64,000 bases of DNA from Actinoplanes aureus. Its GTDB lineage: Bacteria; Actinomycetota; Actinomycetes; Mycobacteriales; Micromonosporaceae. Within the stretch, counting starts at the first letter, position 1. Each line of letters begins with the position of its first letter. Below, piece after piece: positions 57,310 to 64,000 of the stretch. Below the pieces are notes generated by a model that saw nothing but the letters and a program-made list of their open reading frames with translations, was not told where the DNA came from and made no database searches. The position numbers and the translations under genes are program-made. The stretch spans positions 1 to 64,000 of the forward strand of contig NZ_JADQTO010000019.1 of the NCBI RefSeq assembly GCF_015704865.1, in the 5' to 3' direction.

Positions 57310-58010
57310 GCGGGTCAGCACGAGGGTGGAGAGCAGCGCGGCCGCCGCGAAGCCCATGATCACCAGACTCATCGGTACGCCCTGGCCCGGGTCGCCGAGC
57401 CCGGCCAGCGGCGCCGCGACCGAGGCGATCACCGACTGCACCCCCCGAGCAGCGCGGCCGCCGATCCGGCGTTCTCCGGATAGCGGTCCAGTCCGCTGAA
57501 GCACCAGGCTGCCCAGGCTGGGCGCCGCGATCGGCGCCAGGCCGAAGACCAGGGTGAGGCTGGAGAAGAGCTTCGCCGCCGCCGGGCCGGAGCTCACGTC
57601 CCGCACCACCGCGCGGGCGACGACCACCCCGACGCCTCCGGCGAACCCCTGGAGGAGACGCAGGCCGGTGAGCATCGGCGCCGTCGGTGCCAGGGCGATC
57701 AGAAAAGACAGGGCGGCGTACGCGGCAAGCCCGGCGTCCCCACCTGTCACTGAGCGGGCCGAGGACGAGCTGGCCGAGCGCCATGCCGACCAGACGGAAG
57801 GTGAGCGAGAGCTGCACCTGTGCGGGAGAGACCGCCAGGTCGCGCGCGATGTCGGGGAGCGCCGGCAGGTACATGTCCAGCGACAGCGGCCCGATCGTCG
57901 TGATCAGCCCCGAGAATGACGACCAGCAGCACCCGGCGCGGGGCGCGGGTCCTCGCTTCTCCGGTTCCCACGGTCACGGCCGGAACATACGTCGCGTCCG
58001 GGAGTTTCAT
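57295..58010 (-). pseudogene. Bcr/CflA-type drug exporter, frameshifted and internally deleted
   Basis: Remains of a Bcr/CflA MFS exporter are spread over all three minus-strand frames. From ATG 58010 the frame reads [10 protein letters not shown] and then shifts at a C4 run (57908-57911); the next frame reads MYLPALPDIARDLAVSPAQV and the motif A segment LGPLSDRWGRR. Near 57745-57765 a few codons are missing and the frame shifts again to GLAAYAALSFLIAL, GLRLLQGFAGG and VVARAVVRDV. Near 57490 the sequence jumps to the family's last-helices segment RYPENAGSAAALLGG, implying loss of about 170 codons, and a C6 run (57441-57446) causes another shift. The region is about 715 bases long against about 1,200 expected. 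Confidence 0.85.
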
Positions 58011-58122
58011 TCCGGGATGTGATCAGAGGACTCCGAGGTCAGGCGTACGCCGGGTGTCCGGAAGGCGGGACGAGAGTGGCCGGGACAGCGCCCGGTCAGG
58101 GCGCCATGCCAGACTGTCACCC

Positions 58123-59301
58123 GTGTTGCGTTGGCTTACCGCAGGTGAATCGCACGGACCGGCTCTCGTCACGCTGCTGGAGGGTGTTCCCGCCGGGGTG
58201 GAGGTGACGAGCTCGGACATCACCCGTGACCTCGTGCGCCGCCGCCTGGGCTATGGGCGCGGCGCCCGGATGAAGTTCGAGCAGGACGAGATCGAGGTCA
58301 TCGGCGGCATCAGGCACGGCCTCACGCTGGGCAGCCCGGTGGCGATCCGGGTGGGCAACACCGAGTGGCCCAAGTGGGAGACCGTGATGGCGGCCGACCC
58401 GGTGGACCCCGAGGAGCTGGCCGCGCAGGCCCGCAACGCCCCGCTCACCCGCCCGCGGCCTGGCCACGCCGACCTGGCCGGCATGCAGAAGTACGGGCAC
58501 ACCGACGCCCGCCCGATCCTGGAGCGCGCCAGCGCCCGGGAGACCGCGGCCCGCGTCGCCGCCGGCGTGGTCGCCAAGAAGCTGATCAAGCAGGCGCTCG
58601 GCATCGACATCGTCTCGCACGTGATCGAGCTCGGCTCGGTCGCCGCGAAACCCGGCGTGATCCCCACGCCCGACGACTTCGACCGGATCGACGAGGACCC
58701 GCTGCGCTGCCTCGACCCGGAGGCCAGCGCCCGCATGGTGGCCGAGGTCGACGCCGCCAAGCAGGACGCGGACACGCTCGGCGGCATCGTCGAGGTGCTC
58801 GCCTACAACGTGCCGCCGGGCCTCGGCTCGCACGTGCAGTGGGACCGCAAGCTGGACGCCCGCCTGGCCACCGCCCTCATGTCGATCCAGTCGGTCAAGG
58901 GCGTCGAGATCGGCGACGGCTTCACCCAGGCGCGGTCCCGCGGCTCGGTGGCGCACGACGAGATCATCCCGACGCCGGACGGCGTCAAGCGGGTGACCGA
59001 CCGGGCCGGCGGCCTGGAGGGTGGCATCACCAACGGCGAGCCGCTGCGGGTCCGTGCCGCGCTCAAGCCGATCTCCTCGCTGAACCGGGCGCTGCAGACC
59101 ATCGACATCACCACCGGCGAGCCGGCCACCGCGATCAACCAGCGGTCCGACGTCTGTGCGGTCCCGGCCGGCGCGGTGGTCGCCGAGGCGATGGTCGCGC
59201 TGGTCCTGGCCGAGGCGGCGACCGAGAAGTTCGGCGGCGACTCGGTCGCCGAGATCCGCCGCAACCTGGCGTCGTACCTCGACACGCTGGTGGTCCGCTG
59301 A
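58123..59301 (+). CDS. aroC: Chorismate synthase
   Basis: This 392-residue FMN-dependent enzyme turns 5-enolpyruvylshikimate 3-phosphate into chorismate. Signatures are [11 protein letters not shown] at the start, [17 protein letters not shown] near residue 40, [15 protein letters not shown] near 112, and [12 protein letters not shown] near residue 297. The length is normal. The GTG at 58123 matches the conserved N-terminus; CAGACT at 58110-58115 could be a leaderless -10 box. A much longer upstream open frame has no support. Its stop codon overlaps the aroK start. Confidence 0.97.
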
Positions 59302-59807
59302 TGGCTCCGGTCGCCGTCGTGCTCGGCGTGATGGGCGCCGGCAAGACCACGATCGGCGCCGCGGTGGCCGAGGCCCTCGGCGTGCCGTTCGCCGACACCG
59401 ACGCGATCATCGAGGAACGGGCCGGCAAGCCCATCCCGGAGATCTTCGTCGACGACGGCGAGGCCGCCTTCCGCGCGCTGGAGCGTGAGGTCGTCGCCTC
59501 GTCGCTGCGCGACTTCGGCGGGGTGCTCGCTCTAGGCGGCGGCGCGATTCTCGACGACGGTACGCGCAAACTGCTCGCCGACCACACGGTGATCTACCTG
59601 TCGGTGGAGCTGACCGACGCGATCAAGCGGGTCGGGCTGGGCGCGGGCCGCCCACTGCTGGCGATCAACCCGCGGGCGACGCTGAAATACCTGCTGGAGC
59701 AGCGGCGGCCGCTCTATCTGGAGGTCGCCACCCACACGATCACCACCGACGGTCGTGAGCCGGAGGAGATCGCCACCGAGGTCGTCGCCCTGCTCCAGTC
59801 GGCTTGA
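59301..59807 (+). CDS. aroK: Shikimate kinase
   Basis: This 168-residue P-loop kinase phosphorylates shikimate at O3. Walker [10 protein letters not shown] lies at residues 9-17, [11 protein letters not shown] (the DxD shikimate and Mg site) near 33, FRALEREVV with the shikimate-binding Arg near 58, and [11 protein letters not shown] near 78. The lid segment is RPLLAINPR. It overlaps aroC by one base (TGATG). In most actinobacteria aroB follows at once; here an antisense NACHT gene intervenes, ending 10 bases after the aroK stop codon. Confidence 0.95.
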
Positions 59808-59817
59808 GGCCAGCGCG

Positions 59818-62800
59818 TCAGGCGTAGCGGACCTTGATCGAAGCCGGCAGGTTGTCCGGTAGGGTCTGCTCCTTCCGCTTGTGCCAGGGCAGCTTGATGG
59901 TGAGTGGGCCGCCCTGCCAGTCGACGAAGGGCGTGAGATCGACCGGACCGTCAGACGCTTCCACGTCTATCCGCCGAAGACCGGGGGAGTTCACCAAGGG
60001 AGCCAGCTCCGCGCGGTCCGTGAACACCATCTCGATGGATCGCGCCGTCGTCGGAAGCTGGAGGGTGGGCATCTGTCGTTTCGCGAGGCCGCCGAGGAGC
60101 AGCGCGCGTAACCGCCCAAAATGCCGCAGGCTGTCAAGACGAGCGCGCCAATGATCCGATCCGTAGAGCTTGAGCTCCTCGACCAGCGGGAAACTCGTGT
60201 GCACATCCGCCAGGCCCCGGCGCGGGGGCTTGTGGCACGGGCCGAAGCCGAAGATCCGCACCGGCAGCTGTGCGAGCGCCCGGAACGACCGCACGCTGCC
60301 CCACTCGACGTCGAGAGATTCGAGCCGGGACAAGGCCGCCAATGGATCGATGTGTGCGATGTCCTCGGTAAGGACTATCTCCAGCCCTTTCAGCGTCTGG
60401 AGTTTGCTGAGCGCGGATATCTCGGGTCCGCCGCAACCGATCTCGCCGGTAAGCGACAAATGCCCGAGTTCGGGCAGGCGGGCGAGGCTTCCGATATCCG
60501 CTGCGGCGACGCGACCATGAGCGTCATACGCGTCCAGGATGACGAGGTTGCGAAAGCGTTCCAGGGCAGCCATCGGACCGCGGAATCCGTTGCCCAAGAT
60601 CAACCGTGTCAACTTGGCGTTGGCCGGCAAGTCGCGGAGGTCCACGCTCGTTCTCAGCCACAGGTCGATTGTCGTCAAATGCCGCAGATGTCGCGTCGCC
60701 TCCAGGAATGACGGACGTCTGATGAGGATGTGGCCGCCGACGAGCGGAGCCTCGGCCAGAACCTCTCTCGCGTATTCCTCGGCGTCGAAGTAGTCCCAGG
60801 CGCCCGCCAGCTCTAGTTGCACCAGCCTGCGGGGATCCTGGCTGTATCGGCTCAGTACCCGGATCGCGTGCGGGCCATTGATCAGAGCCGCCGTTCGGAC
60901 CGTGGCCGCGGCTTGTGCTTCCGAGAGGCCCGCCAAGTCGGCCGGGAGCCGGCGTAGTAGCGGGTCGCCCACCGGGTACAAGGACCGGGCCTCGTTCAGG
61001 TTGCGCGGCGGCAGAACGTGGTCGAGGCGGGCGTTGATCTCAGTGATCAAAGAGGAAGGTTCCAGGGACGACACGGTTTCCAGACAGGCGCCCGCGAGCA
61101 GGGTCAGCGACCTCCGGTGCCGAGGCTCCCGATCGGCGCGTGCCAGGATGCCGGTGACGATCTCGGTGCGTGTCGGGCTGTTGCTGTGCCCGGCGGCCAT
61201 GATGACGATCTCTCGCCAGGTGTCCAGGTGCGCCTGCCCCGCGAGCAGTCCGCCCATACTCTGCTCAGCGGCCTCGCGAGCGGTCAGATACTCCTGGAAG
61301 GTTCGGTGCACGAAATCGATCCGGCCCACCGCCGGCTCGCGGAGGATGCCGCTGCGCTCGATCAAGTGCTGTAACACCGGCTCGGCCTCCGCCGTCATGC
61401 GCGGCATTGCCGCCAGCTTCCGGCTCACGTAGTCGAGTGCTTCCGCCCTGGTCAGTTCCGACCGCCCGTTCAGGGAGAGGCGCCAGGCCAGGTCCTGCAG
61501 CAGCTGCAACCGCTCCCGTGCAGTCATCTGCGGCAGCGCGGACGGCACTTCCCGCTCGGTGTCGCGGCGGTGCAGGAGCATGTCGACCGCTGCCTGGTAG
61601 ATGCCCATCCGATCGGGTGGCAGATGGGTCTGGCGGTCCAGGTTCAGGGCGCACAGCATGGCCGCCATCAGAGGGTTCCCGGCCAGCCGGTACAGGTGGT
61701 GATTCGCCGCCAGCTGGTTGAGCAGGCTCTGCTCGTACCGATGAAGATCGCCGGCAGGGCACGGCAGCGAGGGTGACGTGCGGGCGGCCTGGTGCCACTG
61801 ATCGATGAGGGCCCGCACGTCGGCCGGCGCCATGCGTTCCAAGGTGAGGGAGCCGAAGTCTTCGTCTTCCAGCCACCGCACCGGCGCCGCCGGCGGCCGC
61901 GAGGTGATCACCACCAGTATGTCGGTGTACGCGGCGAGCAGGTCCCGCAACCATTCACGAACCTTGGGCCGGCGCTCGGCGGGCAACTCGTCCACGCCGT
62001 CGACGAGCAGCAGCGCCCGGCCCGCACGCAGCTGGTCATGGACCCAGCCGGGGGGCATCGCGCCGACGAGTGGATCGGCCACGCCGCTGAGGAACCGCTC
62101 CGGTTGCGGCAGTTCGGCCGGCCAGCTGCGCAGCTTGACCAGGAAAGGAATGCGGCCGTTCCACTCGGCGAGCGCGCCGGTGAAGCCGTTGCCGGCCGCA
62201 GTCACCGCCAGCCAGCGCAGCAACGTCGACTTTCCGGCGCCCGCATCGCCACGGATGAGCGTGCGGGTGCGCCGGGCGAGTGCCTGCTCGACTCGCTCGG
62301 AGCCGCCGGCGCCGAGGCGGGCGTGGCGCAGTAGACCGGGATCCCACTTGGGCAGGCGGGCCCGGGCGGGTGCTCCGGTTCCATTCACCGCGAGGCTGAC
62401 GTAGGCGACGCTGAGCGTGGTCCGCGGCCGGAACTGGGTGTCCAATCCCACCAGCTCCAGCGCGTTCAGCTTCTTGACCAGGAACTCCTGATAACGAGCG
62501 AGGAAGCCGGTGGCGGTCTCCGGTACGGCGAGGGCGAGTCTCCGCAGCGCCTCGGACATCAAGTCGGTCAACTCGGAGAGCCGGCCGAGGATCTCCACGG
62601 AAGCGCGGCCGGTGAACGGCGCAGTCTGCACGACGAACTGGACGAAGCACCTGGCACAGTCGTCCAATGCGATGTCGTAGAGGCGTTCACCCAAGTCGGA
62701 GAGGGCGGCCGGGGGAGCGGAGGCGCGCAGCCGGGCGGTGAGCCGGGCCGGTTCGAGGTCATCGGCGAAGACCGCGTCGTCGGTGAGATCCGCCCGGCGG

Positions 62801-63087
62801 AAGGTGTCGGCCACCGCCTCCATGCAGGCCACCACCTCGTTCTCAGGCAGGGCCGCGAAGCGGGTGGTGATCAGTGGCTTCAGTCGTTCAGCGACGTCGT
62901 CGACGACGGCCTCGATCTGGCGTTCGCCGCGCCGCCGGGTGAATTCATCGGTGGCTCGCTCGCGCAGAAGCTCGCTCAGCGGCAGCGTGCGCTCCCGCTC
63001 CTTCCGCCGGCCGCCCAGCCATCGAGTGAACAGCGGCGTGACCACCGCTCGGCCGACGTTGAGAAGAGCCGTCTCGATGCCGCTCAC
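59818..63087 (-). CDS. NACHT NTPase with C-terminal leucine-rich-like repeats (bacterial NLR-like)
   Basis: This protein of about 1,089 residues has a STAND-type layout. An all-alpha N-terminal effector-like region (1-265) begins with a hydrophobic helix (ALLNVGRAVVTPLF). The NACHT domain follows: Walker A GDAGAGKSTLLRWLA at about 279-293, Walker B ALLLVDGVDELP at about 357-368, sensor VVITSRPPA, a NACHT winged-helix region (GNPLMAAMLCALN) and RIDFVHRTFQEYLTA near 600. From about 800 to 1040 are leucine-rich-like repeats (LTRLILGN, RLPELGHLSLTG, LQTLKGLEIVL, RLESLDVEWG). Related bacterial NACHT proteins protect against phages. The start is GTG 63087 or 63090, after TACAGT. Extensions to 63633 would overlap aroB and are rejected. 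It splits aroK from aroB in antisense. Confidence 0.9.
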   Translation of the reverse strand: MSGIETALLNVGRAVVTPLFTRWLGGRRKERERTLPLSELLRERATDEFTRRRGERQIEAVVDDVAERLKPLITTRFAALPENEVVACMEAVADTFRRADLTDDAVFADDLEPARLTARLRASAPPAALSDLGERLYDIALDDCARCFVQFVVQTAPFTGRASVEILGRLSELTDLMSEALRRLALAVPETATGFLARYQEFLVKKLNALELVGLDTQFRPRTTLSVAYVSLAVNGTGAPARARLPKWDPGLLRHARLGAGGSERVEQALARRTRTLIRGDAGAGKSTLLRWLAVTAAGNGFTGALAEWNGRIPFLVKLRSWPAELPQPERFLSGVADPLVGAMPPGWVHDQLRAGRALLLVDGVDELPAERRPKVREWLRDLLAAYTDILVVITSRPPAAPVRWLEDEDFGSLTLERMAPADVRALIDQWHQAARTSPSLPCPAGDLHRYEQSLLNQLAANHHLYRLAGNPLMAAMLCALNLDRQTHLPPDRMGIYQAAVDMLLHRRDTEREVPSALPQMTARERLQLLQDLAWRLSLNGRSELTRAEALDYVSRKLAAMPRMTAEAEPVLQHLIERSGILREPAVGRIDFVHRTFQEYLTAREAAEQSMGGLLAGQAHLDTWREIVIMAAGHSNSPTRTEIVTGILARADREPRHRRSLTLLAGACLETVSSLEPSSLITEINARLDHVLPPRNLNEARSLYPVGDPLLRRLPADLAGLSEAQAAATVRTAALINGPHAIRVLSRYSQDPRRLVQLELAGAWDYFDAEEYAREVLAEAPLVGGHILIRRPSFLEATRHLRHLTTIDLWLRTSVDLRDLPANAKLTRLILGNGFRGPMAALERFRNLVILDAYDAHGRVAAADIGSLARLPELGHLSLTGEIGCGGPEISALSKLQTLKGLEIVLTEDIAHIDPLAALSRLESLDVEWGSVRSFRALAQLPVRIFGFGPCHKPPRRGLADVHTSFPLVEELKLYGSDHWRARLDSLRHFGRLRALLLGGLAKRQMPTLQLPTTARSIEMVFTDRAELAPLVNSPGLRRIDVEASDGPVDLTPFVDWQGGPLTIKLPWHKRKEQTLPDNLPASIKVRYA

Positions 63088-63094
63088 CACGCGG

Positions 63095-63123
63095 ACTGTA
63101 GCGAAGGCGTCCCAGGATGCGAA
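63095..63123 (-). promoter_or_regulatory. Promoter of the NACHT gene
   Basis: On the minus strand, TTCGCA (63123-63118), a 17-base spacer and TACAGT (63100-63095) precede the GTG pair at 63090/63087 by 4-7 bases. No Shine-Dalgarno sequence is present, so the message is probably leaderless. Confidence 0.45.
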
Positions 63124-63162
63124 GAGATGGAATCGCCGTCCGATCTTGTCGTGGCCGGCCGC

Positions 63163-63175
63163 TAGGGTGAGCGCG
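63163..63175 (+). promoter_or_regulatory. -10 box of a leaderless aroB transcript
   Basis: TAGGGT at 63163-63168 ends 6 bases before the GTG at 63175, with no Shine-Dalgarno sequence. It would give aroB its own promoter, which it needs because the NACHT gene separates it from aroK. Confidence 0.5.
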
Positions 63176-64000
63176 TGGTGACGCGGATTCCGGTGACGGG
63201 TGACCGTCCATATGACGTGATCGTCGGGCGTGGCCTCGACGGCGAGCTGCCCTCTCTCATCGAGGGCGCGGCCCGGGTGGCGATCCTGCACCCGCCCACG
63301 CTGCGGGAGCGGGCCGAGGCGGTCGGCAAGGCGGCCGGTGTCGCGACGGTGGTGCCGATCGAGGTGCCCGATGCCGAGGCCGGCAAGTCGATCGAGGTCG
63401 CGGCCCGGTGCTGGGACGAGCTGGGTGCGGCCGGCTTCACGCGTACCGATGTGGTCGTCGGTGTCGGTGGCGGAGCGACCACCGACCTGGCGGGATACGT
63501 CGCGGCGGCCTGGCTGCGCGGGGTGCGCTGGGTGCCGGTCTCCACCTCGGTGGCCGGCATGGTCGACGCCGCGGTCGGCGGCAAGACCGCGGTCAACATC
63601 GCGGCCGGTAAGAACCTGGTGGGCGCGTTCCACCCGCCCGCCGGGGTGCTCTGCGATCTGGACGCGCTCGACACCCTGCCCGCCGAGGACATCGCGGCCG
63701 GCCTGGCCGAGGTGGTCAAGGGCGGCTTCATCGCCGATCCGCGGATCCTGGAGCTGATCGAGGCCGACCCGGCCTCAGCGATGAATCCACGCGGCGACGT
63801 GCTCCGGGAGCTGGTCGAACGCAAGGTCAGGGTGAAGGCGCACGTGGTGAGCGTGGATCTCAAGGAGTCCGGGCTGCGGGAGATCCTCAACTACGGGCAC
63901 ACGCTCGGGCACGCGATCGAGCGCCGCGAGAAGTACACGTGGAAGCACGGGCACGCGATCTCGGTCGGCCTGGTGTTCGCCGCCGAGCTGGGCCGGCTCA
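63175..64000 (+). CDS. aroB: 3-dehydroquinate synthase (partial, runs off the window)
   Basis: The first 275 residues of AroB are present. The enzyme makes 3-dehydroquinate from DAHP with NAD and a metal ion. Seen in order: an N-terminal Rossmann region ([11 protein letters not shown]), [21 protein letters not shown] near residue 98, [19 protein letters not shown] near residue 127, [13 protein letters not shown] near 144, [11 protein letters not shown] near 182, and [12 protein letters not shown] near 240 with two metal-binding histidines. The 3' end lies beyond 64000. Two GTG codons (63175, 63178) compete for the start. Confidence 0.96.

Follow-up and report, generated by a model that had tools for sequence, protein, structure and literature searches.

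The actinobacterium Actinoplanes aureus carries a bacterial NLR gene, encoding an N-terminal NNH1 domain, a NACHT ATPase, and a predicted C-terminal leucine-rich-repeat (LRR) sensor, which probably acts alone in abortive defense, combining sensor, switch, and executioner in one gene. The NLR gene lies between aroK and aroB in the first 64,000 nucleotides of contig NZ_JADQTO010000019.1 (assembly GCF_015704865.1); this whole stretch was analyzed and is referred to as the window. The names aroK, aroB, and aroC were taken from a preliminary description of the window and from general knowledge. What the analysis supports directly is the domain order, the intact NTPase motifs, the predicted fold nearest to NLRC4, NOD2, and NLRP3, the constraint on NNH1 and NACHT, the faster evolution of the LRR, the patchy presence of the gene, and the lack of a widely shared neighbor gene among the loci compared. 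The family is known but largely untested, and the NLR gene is a well-formed example of it in an instructive place.

The gene is real and intact. Its minus-strand open reading frame (ORF), called on the window, runs uninterrupted from 63090 to 59818 and its stop lies 10 bp from that of aroK, in agreement with the preliminary description, which had reported an intact NTPase of about 1,090 residues ending 10 bases from aroK. In an alignment of 95 homologue rows, G281, G284, G286, K287, and T289 of Walker A and D364, G365, D367, and E368 of Walker B are invariant. The N-terminal region, for which the preliminary description could name no matching toxin domain, is matched by the Pfam NNH1 profile, and further searches placed NNH1 and NACHT in the same positions of the gene. 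The leucine-rich-like C-terminal repeats noted earlier were recovered both as a match of the 95-row homologue profile to internalin-type LRR chains (E value of 2.6e-56) and as a solenoid visible at the C terminus of the AlphaFold model (predicted local distance difference test score of 88.9). Foldseek comparison of the whole model gave NLRC4, NOD2, and NLRP3 as the best matches, to which the predicted fold appears nearest. NNH1 is all-helical in the model; searched alone against solved structures, it had no confident match, and no death-fold or coiled-coil (CC) domain was among the matches listed. The conserved NNH1 residues in the alignment include several Arg and Asp, among which no catalytic signature was, in our judgment, recognizable.

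The LRR is the fastest-evolving part of the protein. Alignment entropy over the 95 homologues was 2.51 bits in the LRR, 1.61 bits in NNH1 (residues 36 to 187), and 1.15 bits in the NACHT nucleotide-binding domain, and the mean pairwise identities within the close set were 0.36, 0.69, and 0.79, respectively. The ratio of nonsynonymous to synonymous divergence (dN/dS) was highest in the LRR in all seven sequence pairs (0.23 to 0.58, versus 0.03 to 0.35 in other parts), although dS was near or above 1 in some pairs, for which the ratio is rough. Polar strand positions of the LRR were more variable than other polar positions, with means of 2.33 versus 2.01 in 18 rows (P = 0.0032) and 3.20 versus 2.80 in 95 rows (P = 6.3e-06), where the strand assignment is model based and the rows are related to each other. 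Such variable polar strand positions are the pattern that a ligand-reading concave face would show. The LRR DNA had no match beyond itself in its own genome, in a comparison that a short, diverged template of a diversity-generating retroelement could escape. In one pair of homologues (G230 and G258; L109 and L111), dS was 0.34 in the LRR and 0.09 to 0.16 elsewhere, a difference that would fit an exchange of the LRR.

The STAND plan combines LRR sensing, ATP-driven NACHT assembly, and an N-terminal output (PMC12169576, PMC8195603, PMC7159879). In the A. aureus protein, the C-terminal LRR would bind an invader-derived or invader-altered protein, possibly from a phage, and ligand binding would free the NACHT ATPase for ATP binding and oligomerization. 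The clustered helical NNH1 domains would then arrest growth or kill the cell, either directly or by recruiting such a response. The leading guess for this output is a nonenzymatic one, in which NNH1 assembles homotypically or acts on the membrane, since no widely recurring partner gene was found and no catalytic signature was recognized. Quite unlikely, by our estimate, is a bolder version in which NNH1 represents a new class of executioner: a short hydrophobic helix starting almost at the start codon would be ejected after LRR-triggered NACHT assembly and perforate the membrane, like a plant CC-NLR resistosome in one self-sufficient gene. In this version, rapid evolution or the exchange of modules at a chromosomal cargo site would renew the specificities of the LRR. 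The preliminary description had suggested that the mode of killing or signaling may be new, which is supported only in part: NNH1 is already cataloged in a large family, but no function was found for it and, taken alone, it has no confident structural match. Its proposal of an NLR-like, anti-phage protein holds for the architecture and, probably, for a role in conflict or defense, both of which the domain order, the predicted fold, the patchy distribution, and the fast sensor support.

Several observations weigh against this model of a solitary defense NLR. Superposition on the animal proteins is poor over the full length (TM-scores of approximately 0.2 to 0.3; root mean square deviation, 21.9), and the likeness is therefore one of domain order. 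The dN/dS of the LRR never exceeded 1, so that relaxed constraint could also account for its pace. No recognizable defense gene adjoins the NLR gene, the direct neighbors being aro genes, and PADLOC (2023; E value of ≤1) gave two weak matches, PtuA1 and mad8, with no match to an Avs model. No phage-tested NNH1-LRR protein was found in the published literature, of which the coverage was incomplete; nor was a report on NNH1 function or on an Actinoplanes NACHT gene, an absence that, with such coverage, proves little.

The protein belongs to a large, known actinobacterial NNH1-NACHT(-LRR) family, members of which are labeled "NACHT conflict system protein" or "NACHT N-terminal Helical domain 1-containing protein" in some sources; what is new is its context and evolution. 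Among the 7,992 best candidates scored, 956 proteins matched at an E value of ≤1e-20. The best 120 of these are headed by the protein of the window itself, to which the following 19 entries are 56 to 64% identical. Full-protein matches (E value of ≤1e-100) were found in 47 of 354 family genomes and 15 of 44 genera, with the two best candidates scored per listed genome. In a genus sample of 67 genomes, which appear to be Actinoplanes or close to it, NNH1 occurs in 20 genomes at 28 places. An orphan fragment at G005:C4:356613-356732 (L133), on a contig without aro genes, matches residues 2 to 41 alone with 65 to 68% identity and may be what is left of a decayed copy or a start region that has been reused. 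Two adjoining NNH1 matches in shorter frames of 718 and 775 amino acids (G025:C1:10259154-10261666) are possibly a tandem pair.

The aroK-aroB junction is a variable cargo site in the genus, already open or repeatedly opened. The two genes are neighbors on one strand in all 67 genus genomes, with gaps ranging from 43 bp to 6.8 kb (<400 bp in 10 genomes, 400 to 1,100 bp in 24, and longer in 33). An antisense gene of approximately 236 amino acids, with a Clp_N domain in the scanned member, occupies the junction in 46 genomes. Further cargo, each family likewise named from one scanned member, includes an ADH-like enzyme (10 genomes), a polysaccharide deacetylase (8), a WYL regulator (6), an alpha/beta hydrolase (4), and an AAA_16-like protein (4) scoring 30.0 bits, under the Pfam cutoff of 32.6. 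The AAA_16-like proteins, of 584 to 827 amino acids (L048, L053, L054, and L073 in G033, G011, G002, and G100), are possibly encoded by another STAND-type gene, and the G011 junction also holds an NLR gene. The genome of the window has no Clp_N gene at the junction but carries a relative of it with 59% identity elsewhere, at G000:C19:95210-95932 (L163). The NLR gene is at the junction in 6 of the 67 genomes, antisense and adjoining aroK in all 6. In 43 genomes of other genera, handpicked and in many cases chosen for carrying a NACHT homologue, the gap was <400 bp in 30 and ≥1.1 kb in 12, and aroK and aroB were on separate contigs in 1. No picked ORF in 11 of these 12 long gaps matched the NLR at an E value of ≤1e-3; the twelfth, in a Plantactinospora genome (G371), holds the NLR gene, which is separated from aroK by genes for an alpha/beta hydrolase and a WYL-type protein.

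These comparisons bear on a recent horizontal insertion into the aro operon, which the preliminary description had suggested and which now seems unlikely. Most genus genomes have other cargo between aroK and aroB, and in this genus the NLR gene therefore did not split an otherwise closed operon. In a quick tree of 51 rows, the seven junction copies (six genus genomes and the Plantactinospora) fall within one clade of 22 rows (SH-aLRT support of 95); they come from two genera, and all occupy this junction in antisense orientation. With the junction copies placed in one old clade, the earlier hint of transfer is not supported in the form given. The other 15 rows of the clade comprise a close copy distant from the aro genes (G035b, the sole other placed member), one effectively identical to that of G371 (P0022), and 13 without a known location. 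The nearest relatives among the matches listed are no more than 64% identical, which indicates that residence is old or that the gene re-entered through the flanks. A recent arrival would nevertheless fit the codon composition, because the G+C content at third codon positions (GC3) of the gene is 0.837, versus a mean of 0.891 (standard deviation, 0.047) for 46 ORFs from a simple caller. As the preliminary description had seen by eye, the LRR is less GC-biased than its neighbors (0.794, compared with 0.855 in the N-terminal part, 0.866 in the NACHT part, and 0.91 to 0.94 in aroK, aroB, and aroC). It would also fit relatives of approximately 39% identity on Streptomyces plasmids, as well as the distribution on a tree built from 645 bases of aroK and aroB in the 67 genomes, where presence of the gene needs five changes. 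That number was matched by 106 of 500 shuffles, and presence is therefore patchy, without clear clustering. G044, which is sister to the window genome on the aro tree, carries a GntP permease gene and others in place of the NLR gene, as a recent arrival would also predict. No tRNA was found in the 64-kb window, as described before, and a repeat scan (repeats of 14 to 32 nucleotides [nt]) found none at the gene edges. The earlier statement that flanking repeats are absent needs qualification, since two imperfect repeats, a direct one of 16 nt (88%; 59420 and 63378) and an inverted one of 17 nt (82%; 59768 and 63269), frame the gene from within aroK and aroB. The aro subclades G051 plus G035 and G011 plus G038 mirror groupings in the NLR tree. 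A single arrival with many losses and re-entry via recombination in the flanks are both compatible with these data, and the gene looks like an old, often-lost resident of the junction rather than a fresh insertion.

Two other explanations concern function. It is conceivable, if somewhat unlikely, that NNH1 is an adaptor recruiting an effector encoded elsewhere through homotypic helical contacts, as proposed for animal CARD/PYD and bacterial effector-associated domains. The domain is helical and conserved, no solved enzyme or pore matches it confidently, and adaptors of this kind have been proposed for conflict systems of bacteria (PMC8195603, PMC7159879). However, across 23 homologue loci, among them the window's own locus and that of its paralogue, no non-NACHT family recurred at more than three loci and one family reached that number, in a comparison confined to neighbors rather than distant genomic partners. 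The locus stretches differ in length and a simple script picked their genes, with the result that a small partner could go unnoticed. Very improbable is a STAND-type protein that has no part in defense and instead regulates the aro genes or cell physiology. The gene does sit in the shikimate cluster, divergent to aroB, and transcription regulation has been studied for some STAND proteins of bacteria (PMC7159879). Nevertheless, Pfam and NCBIfam scans of the protein at an E value of ≤1 contained no DNA-binding domain, the gene is at the junction in few genus genomes, the close copy G035b lies away from the aro genes, and a hypervariable LRR would not be expected of such a regulator. Abortive defense by a self-contained NLR remains the preferred explanation.

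Of the two adjacent GTG codons, 63087 is the likelier start, because 28 of 35 homologues have a start codon four codons ahead of a conserved Glu6, a position that corresponds here to GTG 63087, and because the −10-like TACAGT ends 7 nt upstream of it. A TANNNT pattern 4 to 8 nt 5′ of a usable start was present in 11 of 35 homologues but in only 15 of 1,869 internal start codons serving as the null. This enrichment makes a leaderless promoter likely; the pattern occurs in six of eight placed members of the clade, the exceptions being G019 and G371. TACAGT was not among the predictions of a generic sigma-70 scan. The promoter of its own that had been ascribed to the gene is retained as one predicted from sequence pattern. 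The features are compiled in Table 1.

Table 1. Coordinates of the NLR gene, its predicted elements, and its neighbors in the window
Feature	Position	Strand	Remarks
aroC reading frame, upstream of aroK	57916..59301	+	True start probably near 58123
aroK, left junction border	59304..59807	+	Found in 67/67 genus genomes
NNH1-NACHT-LRR gene (bacterial NLR)	59818..63090	-	1,090 amino acids from GTG 63090; 1,089 from GTG 63087
LRR solenoid, predicted sensor	59821..60750	-	Residues 781-1090
NACHT domain (PF05729)	61786..62262	-	Residues 277-435; Pfam E value 2.6e-18, 66.9 bits (cutoff, 26.7)
Walker B LLLVDGVDE	61987..62013	-	Residues 360-368
Walker A GDAGAGKST	62224..62250	-	Residues 281-289
NNH1 domain (PF22733)	62545..63063	-	Residues 10-182; Pfam E value 2.4e-49, 168.3 bits (cutoff, 27)
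Divergent intergenic region, NLR gene/aroB	63091..63174		84 bp
−10-like TACAGT, predicted leaderless promoter	63095..63100	-	Ends 7 nt before GTG 63087; sequence pattern
aroB 5′ part, right junction border	63175..64000	+	Continues beyond the window; found in 67/67 genus genomes

Compared with other actinobacterial NNH1-NACHT(-LRR) proteins, the A. aureus NLR has the same domains, order, and length, with no essential difference, and is set apart by its own LRR sequence and its aroK-aroB position. The bNACHT proteins tested by experiment, bNACHT25 (clade 6) and bNACHT02 and bNACHT12 (clade 14), share the tripartite plan of N-terminal domain, NACHT, and C-terminal sensor (PMC12169576), but bNACHT25 has a PD-(D/E)XK nuclease and an NCH1 C terminus and clade 14 has SNaCT, where the A. 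aureus protein has NNH1 and the LRR. CARD-NLR systems have adjacent protease or effector genes, whereas the NLR gene here is directly flanked by aroK and aroB. Plant CC-NLR resistosomes (ZAR1 and NRC) likewise combine a helical N terminus, a STAND switch, and an LRR, with weaker Foldseek matches (6j6i_C; E value of 5.8e-09); they possess NB-ARC instead of NACHT (PMC12169576). The animal proteins NLRC4, NOD2, and NLRP3 similarly place helical domains and the LRR after NACHT, but they share only approximately 14% identity with the A. aureus protein, at low TM-scores, and have CARD/PYD in place of NNH1. Among prokaryotic proteins, those with NACHT and LRR come nearest to the NLRs of animals. This compact, seemingly one-gene family could therefore reveal if phage proteins are read directly by bacterial LRRs and if NNH1, a helical and apparently nonenzymatic domain, is able to kill. 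The aroK-aroB junction also points to an exchange site for small cargo that could be mined for other conflict genes.
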